Assembly: GCA_028875655.1 (NCBI GenBank)
Contig: JAPPCX010000070.1
Span: 1 to 61,440, forward strand
Direction of reading: 5' to 3'
Length of the DNA stretch: 61,440 bases
From: Chloroflexota bacterium
Lineage (GTDB): Bacteria; Chloroflexota; Dehalococcoidia; Lucifugimonadales; UBA3495
The translations under genes and the position numbers were made by a program. The notes under the pieces are model-generated. The model was not told the DNA's origin and ran no database searches. It saw only the letters and a program-made list of their open reading frames with translations. Shown in pieces: positions 3,382-61,440 of the stretch. Every line of letters begins with the position of its first letter. Positions within the stretch are counted from its first letter, which is position 1.

Positions 3382-3455
3382 TGGCTGGGGATACAGGATT
3401 CGAACCTGTGATACCTGATCCAGAGTCAGGCGTCTTACCACTAGACTAATCCCCA
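3382..3455 (-). tRNA. tRNA-Gln (anticodon CTG), CCA encoded
   Basis: The reverse strand folds as a cloverleaf. The acceptor stem is TGGGGAT with ATCCCCA, followed by discriminator G and an encoded CCA. The anticodon stem CCTGA/TCAGG holds loop CTCTGGA (anticodon CTG). The T arm contains GGTTCGAATCC. It is 74 nt long with CCA. Confidence 0.93.
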
Positions 3456-56332: not shown

Positions 56333-57217
56333 ATGACCACCCAAGTCACTGACATAGCGCAACCCGTACCCGCCCGGACCGGCCCCGGACCGGATCCCCG
56401 GGCCTTGCACGTCGCCAAAGCCCTCCGCGATGCCACCGACGTCGAGTGCGTCATCCTCTTCGGCTCCCGCGCCCGCGGCAATTGGACGGAGCGGTCGGAC
56501 ATCGACTTGATGATTATTGAGTCTGACACGTCCGAACTGATACCGCGGATGGGGGAGATTCAGCAGACCGCTGCCGAACTGGCCAGCCTGGTCTACCAGA
56601 ATTACGTCGACATCGACTTCGTTTATTTGTCACGGGCCGAATACGAACGGAAAAGCGTCCACACCCTGAACCACGTCGCCCGGTTTGCCCGCCGTGACGG
56701 GGCAATCATCCCCAGAGACCCGGCAGATTTCCCCGGCAACGACGCAACCGCAGACCCCAACCACAGCGACGAGCCTATGGAACGCCAACTCCGCATCGCC
56801 CACGCAAACATGTACTACGACGCCATGCACGTAATGCTGGACAGCGGTACGCGCAACAGAATTACCGTATCTAATGCGCAGCAAGCGCTGGAACACGCTA
56901 TGAAAGCCCTGATTTCAGCGCAAGGGCACGAATACCTCCACGTTCACGAACTTGAACGGCTGCTGGCCCAGATACGCGCCAACGACCCAAACCTGAACTG
57001 GCGGCCAAACAGCGATCTTGAACAACTCAACAACTTCGCCGGCGTCAACCGCTACGGCTCGCTGATAACCCCTGTCTCTGACTACACCGACCTGGCCAAC
57101 CGCGTCACCGACGACCTGAATCTCATCTACGACGAAATCACCCGTCTGACCGACGAAAATCCCTGGGGCGTGCCGCCCGAAGGCAGCAACGACCCAATCC
57201 AACCGCGCCATCGCTAG
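56333..57217 (+). CDS. MNT nucleotidyltransferase-HEPN fusion protein
   Basis: A 294-residue fusion. The minimal nucleotidyltransferase (about 25-130) has GS-x10-D-x-D with G44, S45, D56 and D58 and a third carboxylate in YVDIDFVYLS. After a linker, the HEPN domain (about 150-280) shows AQQALEHAMKALISAQGHEYLHVHELERLL, the nucleotide/dimer face typical of MNT-HEPN partners. Separate MNT and HEPN genes form type VII toxin-antitoxin systems in which MNT adenylylates the HEPN toxin; here both lie in one chain. TAGAAT at 56321-56326 ends six bases before the ATG, suggesting a leaderless transcript. Confidence 0.83.
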   Translation: MTTQVTDIAQPVPARTGPGPDPRALHVAKALRDATDVECVILFGSRARGNWTERSDIDLMIIESDTSELIPRMGEIQQTAAELASLVYQNYVDIDFVYLSRAEYERKSVHTLNHVARFARRDGAIIPRDPADFPGNDATADPNHSDEPMERQLRIAHANMYYDAMHVMLDSGTRNRITVSNAQQALEHAMKALISAQGHEYLHVHELERLLAQIRANDPNLNWRPNSDLEQLNNFAGVNRYGSLITPVSDYTDLANRVTDDLNLIYDEITRLTDENPWGVPPEGSNDPIQPRHR

Positions 57218-57244: not shown

Positions 57245-58390
57245 ATGACCACCGCCGATTGGGGAGACATCTACAAGGAACTCGGCGCAAAGCCCGTCAT
57301 CAACGCCACCGGCAGCGTCACCATGCTGGGCGGCTCCACGCCCATCCCCGAAGTGCGCGAGGCCATGGCCCAGGCCGACGGCGCGTACATTCCCCTCATG
57401 GAGTTGCAGGAAGCCGCCGGCAACGCCATCGCCCGCATGGTCAACGTGCCCGCCGCCTACATCACCTCCGGCGCCGGCTCCGCCCTGATGCTCGCCACCG
57501 CCGCCGCCATGGCCGGCGATGATGACGACCATATCCAGCAGCTGCCCAACACCACCGGCATGAAGAACGAAGTCCTGATCCAGACCCGTCAGCGCTACTG
57601 GTACGACCGCTGCCTGGAACTGGCCGGCGCCAAGCTGGTCATGTTTGGCTCGGAGGAGCGCACCACGCCGGAGGATCTGGAGAACGCCATCGGTCCCAAC
57701 ACCGCCGCCGTCCACTACTACGCCGTGGAGCAGGAATACGACCCCAACGCCCTGTCCCTGGAGGACACCATCGCCATCGCCCACGCCCATGACGTGCTGG
57801 TGACCGTGGACGCCGCCGGCCAGATCTACCCGCTGGAAAACTTCGGCAAGTACATCCGCATGGGCGCGGACTTCCAGTGCATCGCCGCCAAGTACATGGG
57901 CTCGCCCCAGTCCACCGGCCTGGCCCTGGGTTCGGAGGACATGATCCGCAAGATCGGCCTGCAAGCCTTCGCCAGCTACGAGGGCCGGCGGGTGCGCGGC
58001 GTCGGCCGCCCCCAGAAGGTTGACCGCCAGGAGATGATCGGCGCGGTGGCCGCCGTCCGCCACTGGATGACCATGAACCACGAGGATCGCCTCGCTGACT
58101 CAGAACGCCGCAGCCGCGCCATCCTCGGTGCCGTCGTCGGCATCCCCGGCCTCCGCGCCGAACTAATCGACAACGTCATCGGCCACCAACCCTACGGCTT
58201 GAAACTCTGGGTCGATCCTACTGTCGCCGGCTTCGACATCTACGACCTGCGCGACCGCCTCAAGGATGGCGACCCGCCCGTCTGGACCCGCGTCCGCGAC
58301 GAGGATGACTTCATCGCCATCCACATGTTCGGGCTGAATCCCGGCGAGGAAACCACCGTCGGCGAACGCATCGCCGCCCTGTTCAAGTAA
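57245..58390 (+). CDS. SelA-like PLP enzyme (DgaE-type aminotransferase-fold lyase)
   Basis: A 381-residue fold-type I PLP protein resembling SelA and D-glucosaminate-6-phosphate ammonia-lyase. It starts YKELGAKPVINATGSVTMLGG, the family's hallmark, then YIPLMELQEAAGNAIARM, AAYITSGAGSALMLATAA, VDAAGQIYP and the PLP lysine K216 in CIAAKYMGSPQSTGL. True SelA needs selenocysteine partners, none of which are here, so a catabolic lyase is more likely. GGAG lies before the ATG. It follows the MNT-HEPN gene by 27 bases. Confidence 0.85.
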   Translation: MTTADWGDIYKELGAKPVINATGSVTMLGGSTPIPEVREAMAQADGAYIPLMELQEAAGNAIARMVNVPAAYITSGAGSALMLATAAAMAGDDDDHIQQLPNTTGMKNEVLIQTRQRYWYDRCLELAGAKLVMFGSEERTTPEDLENAIGPNTAAVHYYAVEQEYDPNALSLEDTIAIAHAHDVLVTVDAAGQIYPLENFGKYIRMGADFQCIAAKYMGSPQSTGLALGSEDMIRKIGLQAFASYEGRRVRGVGRPQKVDRQEMIGAVAAVRHWMTMNHEDRLADSERRSRAILGAVVGIPGLRAELIDNVIGHQPYGLKLWVDPTVAGFDIYDLRDRLKDGDPPVWTRVRDEDDFIAIHMFGLNPGEETTVGERIAALFK

Positions 58391-58715: not shown

Positions 58716-59492
58716 CTACCGCCGCGGCGACGGCCCCAGGTGCGAGCCGGCGTCCACCAGGATGGTCTCGCCGGTGACGTGCTCCGCGCCTTCGATGAGC
58801 CACACCACCGGGTCGGCTACCGCCTCCGTGGTGCCGGCGGTTTGCAGTGGCGCGGATGCCGCGTACCGCTCGATGAACCCCTGGTAGCCGTCGCCCAGGC
58901 CGTCCCGCCACCAGCGGGTCTGCATCACGCCGGGGCACACGGCGTTGACCCGTATCTCCGGGGCGAGGGCACGGGCCAATGAGAACGTCATCACGTTCAG
59001 CGCCGCCTTGGACGCCGCGTAGGCGATGGAACTGCCCGACCCGCTGAACCCGGAGCCGGACGAGACGTTGACGATGGCCCCCTTGCCCTGCTCCTGCATG
59101 GCCGGCGCAACCGCCCGCGCCATCTGGAACGCTCCGATCACGTTCACGTCCAGGACGCGCCGGAAATCGTCCGAGGCCAGGCCCTCCAGGTCGTAGTGCG
59201 GCACGATCACCGACGTGGCGGCGTTGTTCACCAGACCGTCGATTCTGCCCCACTGCTCCAGCGCCGCCGCCGCCATCCGTCGGCAGTCCTCATCTACGGA
59301 CACGTCGGCCTGGCACAGGATGGCCTCGCCGCCGGCGGCCCGGCACGCCTCCGCCGATTCCCTGGCCTCGGCCTCGCTCCGGGTGTAGTTGATAACGACC
59401 CGCCCGCCCTTGGCCGCCAACTGCCGCGCCACCTCTGCGCCCAGTCCCGTCGCCGATCCCGTGATTATGAACACCCCGCCTTGAACTTCCAT
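58716..59492 (-). CDS. short-chain dehydrogenase/reductase
   Basis: A 258-residue classical SDR. It has the cofactor motif TGSATGLG (about 11-18), NNAATS, VNVSSGSG with the catalytic serine, and YAASKAALN with Tyr and Lys, then a WWRDGLGDGYQGFIERY substrate loop and VTGETILVDAGSHL. It is an NAD(P)-dependent alcohol/ketone oxidoreductase of unknown substrate. ATG 59492 is preferred to 59498 because GGAGG then sits 6 bases upstream. It is the last gene of the run below the betaine methyltransferases, 15 bases after the previous stop. Confidence 0.9.
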   Translation of the reverse strand: MEVQGGVFIITGSATGLGAEVARQLAAKGGRVVINYTRSEAEARESAEACRAAGGEAILCQADVSVDEDCRRMAAAALEQWGRIDGLVNNAATSVIVPHYDLEGLASDDFRRVLDVNVIGAFQMARAVAPAMQEQGKGAIVNVSSGSGFSGSGSSIAYAASKAALNVMTFSLARALAPEIRVNAVCPGVMQTRWWRDGLGDGYQGFIERYAASAPLQTAGTTEAVADPVVWLIEGAEHVTGETILVDAGSHLGPSPRR

Positions 59493-59507
59493 TATCATCC
59501 TCCGGGA

Positions 59508-60278
59508 TTACTTCTTCGCAACCTGGATTACGAAGTCCGGCTCGTAGAAATCGTAGCCGGGTACGAAGTCGCCGTAGCGTTCCACGCTGCTGAAGCCGGC
59601 GTCCTTCAAAAGGGCGGTGACGTAGTTTTGCCGGATGGGGCACAGCGTCAGGAAGTGGACGTCCCCGTCGGCGTATTCGTAGCGCATCTTCAGGATTTCC
59701 TCGGTCAGTTCTTCGGGGTTGACCTCCACCATTTCGCCCATGTAGTAGGACTGGTGCTTGCTGTGGAAACCGTTGTCGAGGATGGCGTCGTAGTTGCGCT
59801 GGTCAATGATGGCGATGCCGTCCTCGTTGAGGAGACTGTACACCTGGTTGAGGGCCCGCACCCGGTCGGATTCCTCGAACAGGTGGGTGAAAGCGTTGCC
59901 CAGGCAGATGACCGCGTCGAACCGCTCCCCGGCAAAGGCGTCGGTGAGTCGAGTCCACTCGGCCTCGACCAGACGAACGTCATCCATGCCGAACCGTTCG
60001 GCGTTCTCCCTGGCCTGGACCAGCATGTTGGGCGCGCCGTCGGCGCCGGTGACCTCAAAGCCGTCAGCGGCCAGCGTTACTACGTGGAAGCCCGTGCCGC
60101 AGGCGATGTCCAGCACGGTCTCGGCCCCGTGCTCTTTCAGGATGTTCTGGAAGAAATTGTTTTCGGCATCGGCCCGGCGTTGCCAGTCGATCAGTTCGTC
60201 CCAGCGTCCCACAAACTCCGTAGAGTACTGCTCTTTGTAGAGGTCCTTGGGGACGATGATCTCGTCGTTTTGACGCAT
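59508..60278 (-). CDS. glycine/sarcosine N-methyltransferase (betaine synthesis)
   Basis: A 256-residue SAM methyltransferase. Residues YSTEFVGRWDELIDWQRRAD, VLDIACGTGFHVVTL (SAM motif I), FDAVICLGNAFTHLFEE, IIDQRNYDAILDNG and a YGDFVPGY...DPDF-like tail match the glycine-sarcosine methyltransferases of halophiles, which make sarcosine and dimethylglycine from glycine. The dimethylglycine-methylating partner is just upstream at 60359. ATG 60278 follows AAAGGAG; the longer frame to 60731 overlaps that gene and is rejected. The product is made in the cytosol and used as an osmolyte. Confidence 0.88.
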   Translation of the reverse strand: MRQNDEIIVPKDLYKEQYSTEFVGRWDELIDWQRRADAENNFFQNILKEHGAETVLDIACGTGFHVVTLAADGFEVTGADGAPNMLVQARENAERFGMDDVRLVEAEWTRLTDAFAGERFDAVICLGNAFTHLFEESDRVRALNQVYSLLNEDGIAIIDQRNYDAILDNGFHSKHQSYYMGEMVEVNPEELTEEILKMRYEYADGDVHFLTLCPIRQNYVTALLKDAGFSSVERYGDFVPGYDFYEPDFVIQVAKK

Positions 60279-60358
60279 ATATTCTTTACTCCTTTGGTTT
60301 TTATCGGACGCCGGGCGCAGGACCGGGTCCGATGCTTTAGTTGCTTTGGTCCGATTTG

Positions 60359-61192
60359 CTAGGCGGAGGGCTTGGCCACCAGCAGGCCCCAGCCGATGTA
60401 CCCGGCGTTGCCCGAGTCCACCCAGAACGAGAGCGCGGCGACGGTGTTGTCGATGGTCTCGGCGCCGATGCGCGGCAGCAGAGCTTCCCGCTGCTCTTGC
60501 AACCGATCCCGGACCCATCCGTAGGAACGGGCCACGTGCTGCGACCAGTCCTCCTCCCGCGTGACCGTGAGTTCCAGCGCGGAGAGCGCGTTGCGGTAGT
60601 CGGGCAGGTCCCACATGTCCGGCGATTTTACCCGGTCGTAAATCCTGGCCCGGTCGGCATCCGGCGTATCGCGGCGCACCAGGATGTCGGTGAAGATGAG
60701 GACGCCGTCGGGCTTCAGGACGCGCCGGCACTCGGACAGAACGGCATTCTTGTCCGCCGCGTGCAGGAACGCTTCCTGGCTCCAGACCACGTCGTATGAA
60801 TCGTCGGGGTAGGGCAGGCTGTGGAAGTCGCCATACTCAAAAGACAGTAACCGGTCCAGGCCGGCTTCCAGTCCGCGGGATCGGGCCAGTTCCAACTCTT
60901 TCTCGCTGATGTTGGTGCCGGTCACGTGGCAGCCGAAGTTGGCCGCCAGGTAGCGCGCCGTGGAGCCGTAGCCGCAACCCAGGTCCAGGACGCGGGTCTG
61001 GGGGGTCAGCGCGACGGCCTCGGCCATGATGGCGTTGGTGTTTTCCATAGCTTCAGGGTGGGGGCAATCGTCGCAGCAAGGCACTCCCAGGTGCAGGTTG
61101 TCGCCCCAGATGGTGCGGTAGATTTCGTCCGCCGGCCCGTCGTAATAGGCCTGGGTGGTGGCAACGATGGCTTCGACGTCTTGGTGGCTCAT
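60359..61192 (-). CDS. sarcosine/dimethylglycine N-methyltransferase (betaine synthesis)
   Basis: A 277-residue SAM methyltransferase. It has QAYYDGPADEIYRTIWGDNLHLGV at the start, VLDLGCGYGSTARYLA (motif I), TGTNISEKELELARSRGL, YDVVWSQEAFLHAADKNAVL, and the tail SFWVDSGNAGYIGWGLL. These match the dimethylglycine methyltransferases that finish betaine synthesis. AGGAG lies before the ATG. Gaps to the next gene (GSMT, 80 bases) and to the MetE-like gene upstream (48 bases) suggest an operon. Confidence 0.88.
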   Translation of the reverse strand: MSHQDVEAIVATTQAYYDGPADEIYRTIWGDNLHLGVPCCDDCPHPEAMENTNAIMAEAVALTPQTRVLDLGCGYGSTARYLAANFGCHVTGTNISEKELELARSRGLEAGLDRLLSFEYGDFHSLPYPDDSYDVVWSQEAFLHAADKNAVLSECRRVLKPDGVLIFTDILVRRDTPDADRARIYDRVKSPDMWDLPDYRNALSALELTVTREEDWSQHVARSYGWVRDRLQEQREALLPRIGAETIDNTVAALSFWVDSGNAGYIGWGLLVAKPSA

Positions 61193-61240
61193 TAGCGAAA
61201 TCTCCTCATGGGGTTTTGTAGCGGCGGGCGTGCAATCGCC

Positions 61241-61440
61241 TCACCCATTGATCAGGTAGTCAACCGCCAGCCGGTGGCTCACCAGCAGGCCCGGCACCCG
61301 GTTCGGGTCCGTGCGACCCCAACCGCACTCGGTGGCCACGCTGAACGACGGCAGGAACCGCCGCGCCGTATCCATGCGGGCGCAATCACCCTCCTCGTCG
61401 TCATAGTGAATCAGGCCCAGGATGACCTCCGTATCGTCAG
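61241..61440 (-). CDS. MetE-like (cobalamin-independent methionine synthase family) protein, C-terminal part only
   Basis: Only the last 66 residues are inside the window; the gene runs off the right edge. They read EVILGLIHYDDEEGDCARMD, FLPSFSVATECGWGRTDP and VPGLLVSHRLAVDYLING. The ATECGxGR motif, with a cysteine that would bind zinc, and the late histidine are typical of short MetE-like methyltransferases. Methionine synthesis would supply SAM for the two betaine methyltransferases next to it. The identification rests on a short stretch; uroporphyrinogen-decarboxylase-like relatives are an alternative. Confidence 0.5.
   Translation of the reverse strand, partial: DDTEVILGLIHYDDEEGDCARMDTARRFLPSFSVATECGWGRTDPNRVPGLLVSHRLAVDYLING

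Follow-up and report, generated by a model that had tools for sequence, protein, structure and literature searches.

What is encoded in the last 2.7 kb of a Chloroflexota contig on which two putative N-methyltransferase genes lie between the truncated end of a MetE-like gene and a gene for an SDR-family oxidoreductase: a dedicated operon for glycine betaine that also renews its own methyl donor, or a betaine-making pair that has come to stand between genes of a different module? The stretch analysed here (the window) is the entire contig G000:C82, 61,440 bases of a draft genome (G000) of 3.45 Mb in 123 contigs, and a first-pass annotation, made from the letters alone, had read its end as a glycine-to-betaine operon led by a MetE-like methionine synthase. 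Open reading frames and their translations place four genes on the minus strand in the order MetE-like, SDMT (sarcosine/dimethylglycine N-methyltransferase), GSMT (glycine/sarcosine N-methyltransferase) and SDR, separated by 48, 80 and 9 nucleotides (nt), respectively, and the unidirectional, closely spaced run described at the outset is thereby confirmed. The reading that we favor, with a probability of roughly 80%, is that the GSMT-SDMT core makes glycine betaine and that the MetE-like and SDR genes are bystanders from another module. It is built on similarity-based gene identity, residue conservation, gene order and distribution.

Identity of the two methyltransferases

GSMT aligns with the crystallised GSMT of Methanohalophilus portucalensis (PDB 5gwx) over query residues 10-256 at E=3.8e-74, 117 of the 247 aligned positions being identical (47%), and it matches the NCBIfam model NF051855 at E=1.7e-88 and 296.6 bits. 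For SDMT the best NCBIfam match is NF041675, the sarcosine/dimethylglycine methyltransferase model (E=2e-57, 195.2 bits, residues 1-271), the runner-up scoring 94.1. Its best PDB match, 2o57 (E=2e-37), carries the title 'putative sarcosine dimethylglycine methyltransferase' and comes, we assume, from Galdieria.

The residues of GSMT speak for the same function. From PMC5146677 (this and the other publications cited here by PMC number were available in part, and what is said of them extends to those parts) we took ten residues of the M. portucalensis enzyme for SAM (S-adenosylmethionine) binding, substrate binding or catalysis, of which nine are kept in the window's protein (Y26, W34, R43, L132, N134, H138, R167, Y185 and Y206), the sole change being M218 to Leu; the betaine pocket is kept at five of six positions (D35, I38, D39, W40 and N100), with Phe in place of H104. 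Asp35, Trp40 and Asn100, given by the same source as highly conserved among GSMTs and not among glycine N-methyltransferases (GNMTs), are all three present. The reaction sequence is established for GSMT/SDMT pairs (PMC7824335, PMC9062515), and these matches and residues support the original assignment of the two genes as glycine-to-betaine methyltransferases; judged by sequence, the glycine betaine pathway is real and probably functional.

Distribution and phylogeny of the pair

A GSMT scan of 147 genomes, the window's own included, in which scores above 340 bits were counted, found the gene in 17, all of them from the window's own family, where 17 of 50 genomes in four genera carry it; within the window's genus it occurs in five of 14. 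SDMT adjoins GSMT in 15 of the 17 genomes, with SDMT first in 13 of these and GSMT first in the other two (G001 and G005). Across the phylum, the GSMT model returned four matches at E<=1e-40 among 400 genomes, namely the window's own genome, two in family f104 and one in family f76. The f76 locus (L151, genome G494) holds a distinct GSMT, 48% identical to that of the window and at 487 bits over the NF051855 cut-off, along with an SDMT-like gene that shares 34% identity with the window's SDMT, hinting at a separate acquisition.

There are 18 named loci that contain an SDMT relative, of which 15 belong to metagenome-assembled genomes (MAGs) of Chloroflexi, Dehalococcoidia or SAR202, two to Alphaproteobacteria and one, a weak match (26%), to Bacilli, which bears out the earlier placement in a Chloroflexota-type genome; several of the Chloroflexi and SAR202 MAGs presumably originate from sponges. 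The proposed saline habitat likewise gains support, given that SAR202 relatives are named among these loci and that SAR202 is marine (PMC9416657, PMC6306507, PMC5395668).

The GSMT and SDMT trees agree on a group of G000, G008 and G011, on a group from genus g7 and on the two Alphaproteobacteria, and they disagree on the pairing of G001 with G005; the f104 and f76 sequences are not confidently separated from the window's family. Taken as a whole, the pair looks like an old, patchily retained possession of this SAR202-type family, held in four genera.

The MetE-like protein

The 65-residue fragment in the window matched nothing in Pfam, NCBIfam or the PDB at the thresholds used. The Pfam methionine-synthase model (PF01717) matches none of 19 MetE-like members, no NCBIfam methionine-synthase model matches either of the two members scanned, and PDB sequence and profile searches with the MetE-like protein gave nothing relevant. 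Nevertheless, H224-x-C226 and C323 are invariant in all 19 aligned MetE-like sequences, as well as in a wider set of 19, and the window fragment carries the distal Cys of this HxC...C motif (ATECGWGR), HXCXnC being the methionine-synthase zinc motif (PMC7005905).

The family was therefore compared with two yardstick sets drawn from the PF01717 hits of relatives and E. coli MetE: g1, eight high-scoring sequences of MetE or core-MetE type, and g2, consisting of twenty PF01717 relatives with lower scores. Excluded were three rows containing stops, the partial hit L113 and any hit for which no locus was stored. When the MetE-like profile was aligned locally to the two sets with hhalign, the probabilities were 26% and 44%. 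The scores, 34.4 and 38.4, exceeded the maxima reached in 100 column shuffles (24.8 and 26.0) and the values for the reversed profile (14.8 and 14.4); as further controls, the comparison with GSMT gave 0.25% and that of g1 with g2 100%. A global alignment to g2 brought VGS, DGE, HxC and the distal Cys into register at 78.9% probability, and that to g1 failed. A single-sequence structure model of the protein was poor (pLDDT 44.6), and its top Foldseek match was 1ypx, a putative MetE, at E=2.4e-3; other enzymes ranked only slightly lower, and no match reached 0.001. The MetE-like protein is thus predicted, as the most likely assignment, to belong to the MetE superfamily. As to the first-pass annotation, which had named membership of another family as an outcome that would overturn it, the MetE kinship holds up at superfamily level (profile, motif and a weak fold signal), and the protein lies outside the curated methionine-synthase models searched. 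PF01717 itself has 15 to 22 matches per genome in G014, G017, G031, G052 and G055, which represent the window's family and order.

Linkage of the MetE-like and SDR genes to the pair

With the 65-residue fragment as the only query, MetE-like genes were found in 19 of the 50 family genomes, GSMT being present in 17 and both in six, and neither here nor among the 14 genomes of the genus did co-occurrence depart from chance (Fisher p = 1 in both). The MetE-like gene adjoins the GSMT-SDMT pair in just two of the 17 GSMT-bearing genomes, G000 and its sister species G008, a count that could miss an upstream copy where contigs end 42 nt (G044) or 786 nt (G041) past SDMT. The pair is absent from G006 and G002, where the MetE-like gene is followed directly, some 55-60 nt away, by the SDR known from the window (identity 95% in G006 and 92% in G002), and the SDR in turn by the same convergent DgaE-like, ECH and M20 genes. 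In a five-genome tree of the shared genes, rooted at the midpoint only, G000 groups with G008 and G011 has the longest branch.

Relatives of the MetE-like gene keep other company. Among 20 loci with close relatives (the window not included), six have an M19 dipeptidase upstream and a PNPOx-fold protein downstream, six a luciferase-like oxidase upstream and two a DAO-type oxidase upstream; the remaining six are G008 and G006, whose neighbours are described separately, and four that match none of the probe genes. In two of five more divergent loci (G093 and G114) an SDR, 33-34% identical, stands directly downstream. No known gene of methionine or betaine synthesis is among the families named beside these relatives. 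The MetE-like gene hence looks like a chance neighbour of the pair, not a part of the pathway, and the dedicated MetE-led operon was not borne out. Since the neighbours comprise M19 dipeptidase with PNPOx-fold proteins, DAO-type amine oxidase with a transporter, and luciferase-like oxidases, the substrates suggested are compounds such as small N- or S-methylated molecules, and we put forward, as a tentative proposal less likely to be right than wrong, that the MetE-like proteins form an uncatalogued family of single-domain zinc methyltransferases in SAR202-type Chloroflexota, serving methyl transfer as dissolved organic matter is degraded in the sea and not methionine synthesis.

Six of the seven GSMT-bearing genomes of genus g4 (L063, L064, L065, L066, L068 and L069) carry a different SDR that shares 29-31% identity with the one in the window. 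It stands upstream of SDMT, or of GSMT in G047, and the best NCBIfam model for the G042 copy is a mycofactocin-coupled SDR, below cut-off.

The general methyl cycle is encoded elsewhere in the genome. Contig C119 carries MetH (L103, 4773-8309), 871 residues with four domains and no activation domain, followed after 6 nt by a separate activation-domain protein, so that MetH is split; on contig C19, AhcY is followed by MetK 15 nt later. The S-adenosylhomocysteine hydrolase whose presence nearby was to be checked is not found near the window genes, for PF05221 hits only one gene in the genome, the AhcY on C19, in two stretches. A separate betaine-homocysteine methyltransferase of the PF02574 family was not found either, the sole match to that model in the genome being MetH. 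We considered the MetE-like protein as a local supplier of SAM and rejected it, in view of the rare adjacency, the Fisher tests in family and genus and the methyl cycle on other contigs; the earlier suggestion of local SAM supply is, on the same grounds, not supported. As the genome also encodes an OpuAC-type ABC binding protein (143.6 bits), betaine uptake and synthesis may coexist.

Alternative readings

Several observations weigh against the favored reading and are best taken together. Both enzymes fall short of their equivalog cut-offs, GSMT with 296.6 against 350 bits and SDMT with 195.2 against 550. The SDMT homologues of Fodinicurvata (200.8) and of the Dehalococcoidia MAG L087 (185.6) miss NF041675 as well, and on NF051855 the Fodinicurvata GSMT scores 279.6 bits and the f76 Chloroflexota GSMT 487.1, so the Fodinicurvata pair is likewise below both cut-offs at scores like those of the window pair; we read the NF051855 cut-off as strict and file the gene as a putative GSMT by its structure match and residues. 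G047 has no SDMT beside GSMT, and G038 only SDMT fragments. Neither tree resolves its deep forks, and a single origin within the family is not supported. In G011 the SDR stands beside the pair with no MetE-like gene found by the 65-residue query, which makes the link between SDR and pair less clearly accidental; because the pair is beside the SDR there too, it either was ancestral and disappeared from G002 and G006 or was acquired on two occasions. Finally, the spacing in G000 and G008 is short enough for a single transcript, and there may be a functional link confined to these two species.

With regard to G038 itself, two SDMT fragments (L058, 8814-9200; query residues 20-103 and 233-275) lie beside a stop-free GSMT frame, a pathway that appears to be decaying or misassembled.

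The alternative that survives best, although we hold it to be improbable, is that the two methyltransferases use other substrates, for instance beta-alanine, or methylate glycine merely as a sink for SAM in the manner of animal glycine N-methyltransferase. To this the scores below the equivalog cut-offs lend some weight, as do a best SDMT structure match that is itself only titled 'putative' and the match of GSMT to the animal enzyme in the PDB search (E=2.2e-25); against it stand the retention, for the most part, of the residues with which a characterised GSMT contacts its substrate and forms its betaine pocket, the full set of GSMT-specific residues Asp35, Trp40 and Asn100 (PMC5146677) and the tight linkage of GSMT to SDMT. 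More doubtful still is a dedicated betaine operon whose MetE-like protein would be a methionine synthase remaking methionine locally for SAM. The shared strand, the 48-nt gap, a gene order common to two species, the zinc motif of methionine synthases (PMC7005905) and the MetE-superfamily signals would all fit such an arrangement, yet it is very unlikely in the face of adjacency in 2 of 17 genomes, co-occurrence at chance level, other neighbours in relatives, MetH, MetK and AhcY lying elsewhere and the absence of any methionine-synthase match among 19 members in Pfam and two in NCBIfam. Least credible is that, solely in the G000/G008 lineage, the MetE-like and SDR genes were recruited to some side step in betaine metabolism, for which the short gaps there, the SDR beside the pair in G011 and the different SDR that six of seven g4 genomes carry ahead of the pair or of GSMT could be adduced, but which sits badly with the MetE-like/SDR pairing of G002 and G006 where GSMT-SDMT is missing, with the SDR directly downstream of the divergent MetE-like genes of G093 and G114, and with the fact that the two pair-adjacent SDRs lie on opposite sides and have different best NCBIfam models.

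Locus layout and genome context

The coordinates of the genes at issue and of their convergent neighbour are collected in Table 1.

Table 1. Genes at the end of contig G000:C82, with the evidence for each assignment.
Feature	Position	Strand	Evidence
MetE-like, C-terminal 65 aa, predicted MetE/core-MetE superfamily; gene cut by contig end	61241..61438	-	Full-length G008 homologue, profile comparison, fold search
SDMT, putative sarcosine/dimethylglycine N-methyltransferase, 277 aa	60359..61192	-	NF041675, PDB 2o57, GSMT adjacency
GSMT, putative glycine/sarcosine N-methyltransferase, 256 aa	59508..60278	-	PDB 5gwx, NF051855, active-site residues
SDR-family oxidoreductase, 260 aa, 9 nt past GSMT	58716..59498	-	PF13561 E=4.1e-54
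DgaE/SelA-like PLP (pyridoxal phosphate) enzyme, convergent with SDR	57245..58390	+	TIGR01437 E=2.8e-49, below model cut-off

The window covers its contig from end to end, so the MetE-like gene is necessarily incomplete here. The sister species G008 has an intact locus of identical gene order (L054, the same sequence as L074, JAJDWF010000010.1), in which the MetE-like protein is complete at 351 residues from the ATG chosen and its gene is preceded by a CoA-transferase III gene and by another gene related to the latter. Sequences resembling ribosome-binding sites are found ahead of SDMT, GSMT and SDR, that of GSMT reading AAAGGAG before an ATG start. The M20-ECH-DgaE block to which the DgaE-like gene belongs is present also in G002, G006, G008 and G011. 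No riboswitch exceeds the Rfam gathering scores in the window or in L054, the sole Rfam match above them being a tRNA gene at window positions 3385-3455 (-). Between the ECH and DgaE-like genes, a nucleotidyltransferase-HEPN fusion (56333-57217, +) occurs in G000 and G006, with no match in the G008, G002 and G011 loci; its GC content at third codon positions (GC3) is 74.6% as opposed to about 89% in its neighbours, and it is perhaps a recent insertion.

Discussion

The favored reading, a betaine-making GSMT-SDMT core flanked by bystanders, would operate as follows. GSMT, with SDMT overlapping, would convert glycine to sarcosine and dimethylglycine and SDMT would carry the product on to betaine, in three SAM-dependent methylations whose methyl groups would come from the general cycle of MetH, MetK and AhcY. 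Whether in sea water or in host tissue, betaine would serve as a compatible solute, and it might feed back on GSMT through the largely conserved betaine pocket. In G000 and G008 the pair, sitting between the MetE-like and SDR genes, may share their transcript, these two genes presumably forming part of a different, probably catabolic, module.

We found no description of glycine methylation in SAR202 or sponge Chloroflexota in the open-licence literature, of which coverage was partial, subscription journals lying mostly outside it. In the parts available, betaine in SAR202 is assigned to uptake or choline breakdown (PMC9416657), choline and sarcosine degradation are described in the same group (PMC6306507, PMC5395668), betaine synthesis genes are reported as not found in Chloroflexus and Roseiflexus (PMC7824335), and for the glycine-to-betaine route in a salt lake other phyla are listed (PMC8581802). 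For sponges, the accessible text mentions betaine only as a choline-derived methyl donor and as a transport substrate (PMC12879404, PMC9531527), and the subject of PMC8547467 is betaine breakdown. GSMT moves horizontally between phyla (PMC10742547); section 3.1 of that article names no Chloroflexi GSMT, a statement that does not extend to its tree of 317 sequences. The enzymes are ordinary and the host is modestly new, and the pathway may be reported elsewhere. SAR202 is an abundant marine group, and a patchy pathway spread over four genera within one family would turn some of its members into producers of a major nitrogen-carrying osmolyte of the sea. The locus also corrects a tempting inference, in that a methionine-synthase-like neighbour does not here imply a local supply of SAM.

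Among known systems, the core-MetE of Dehalococcoides (PMC7005905) is comparable to the MetE-like protein in being single-domain and of similar length (343 against 351 residues), and HXCXnC is common to both; the MetE-like protein differs in matching neither PF01717 nor any NCBIfam model tried, in a similarity confined to profile-profile comparison and in the catabolic-type neighbours of its relatives. The alphaproteobacterium Fodinicurvata fenggangensis (L090) has an SDMT 54% and a GSMT 42% identical to those of the window, with similar NCBIfam scores, whereas its GSMT lies upstream of SDMT, opposite to the window, and no MetE-like homologue was found in the 11-kb locus. The GSMT-SDMT pathway of Methanohalophilus portucalensis, Halorhodospira halochloris and Thioalkalivibrio versutus likewise consists of two adjacent class I methyltransferase genes, and the window GSMT is, as noted, nearly half identical to the M. 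portucalensis enzyme with its active-site residues mostly kept. What sets the present system apart from those hosts is a SAR202-type Chloroflexota as bearer, a usual order of SDMT then GSMT that is reversed in G001 and G005, and flanking by both a MetE-like and an SDR gene, which is confined to G000 and G008.

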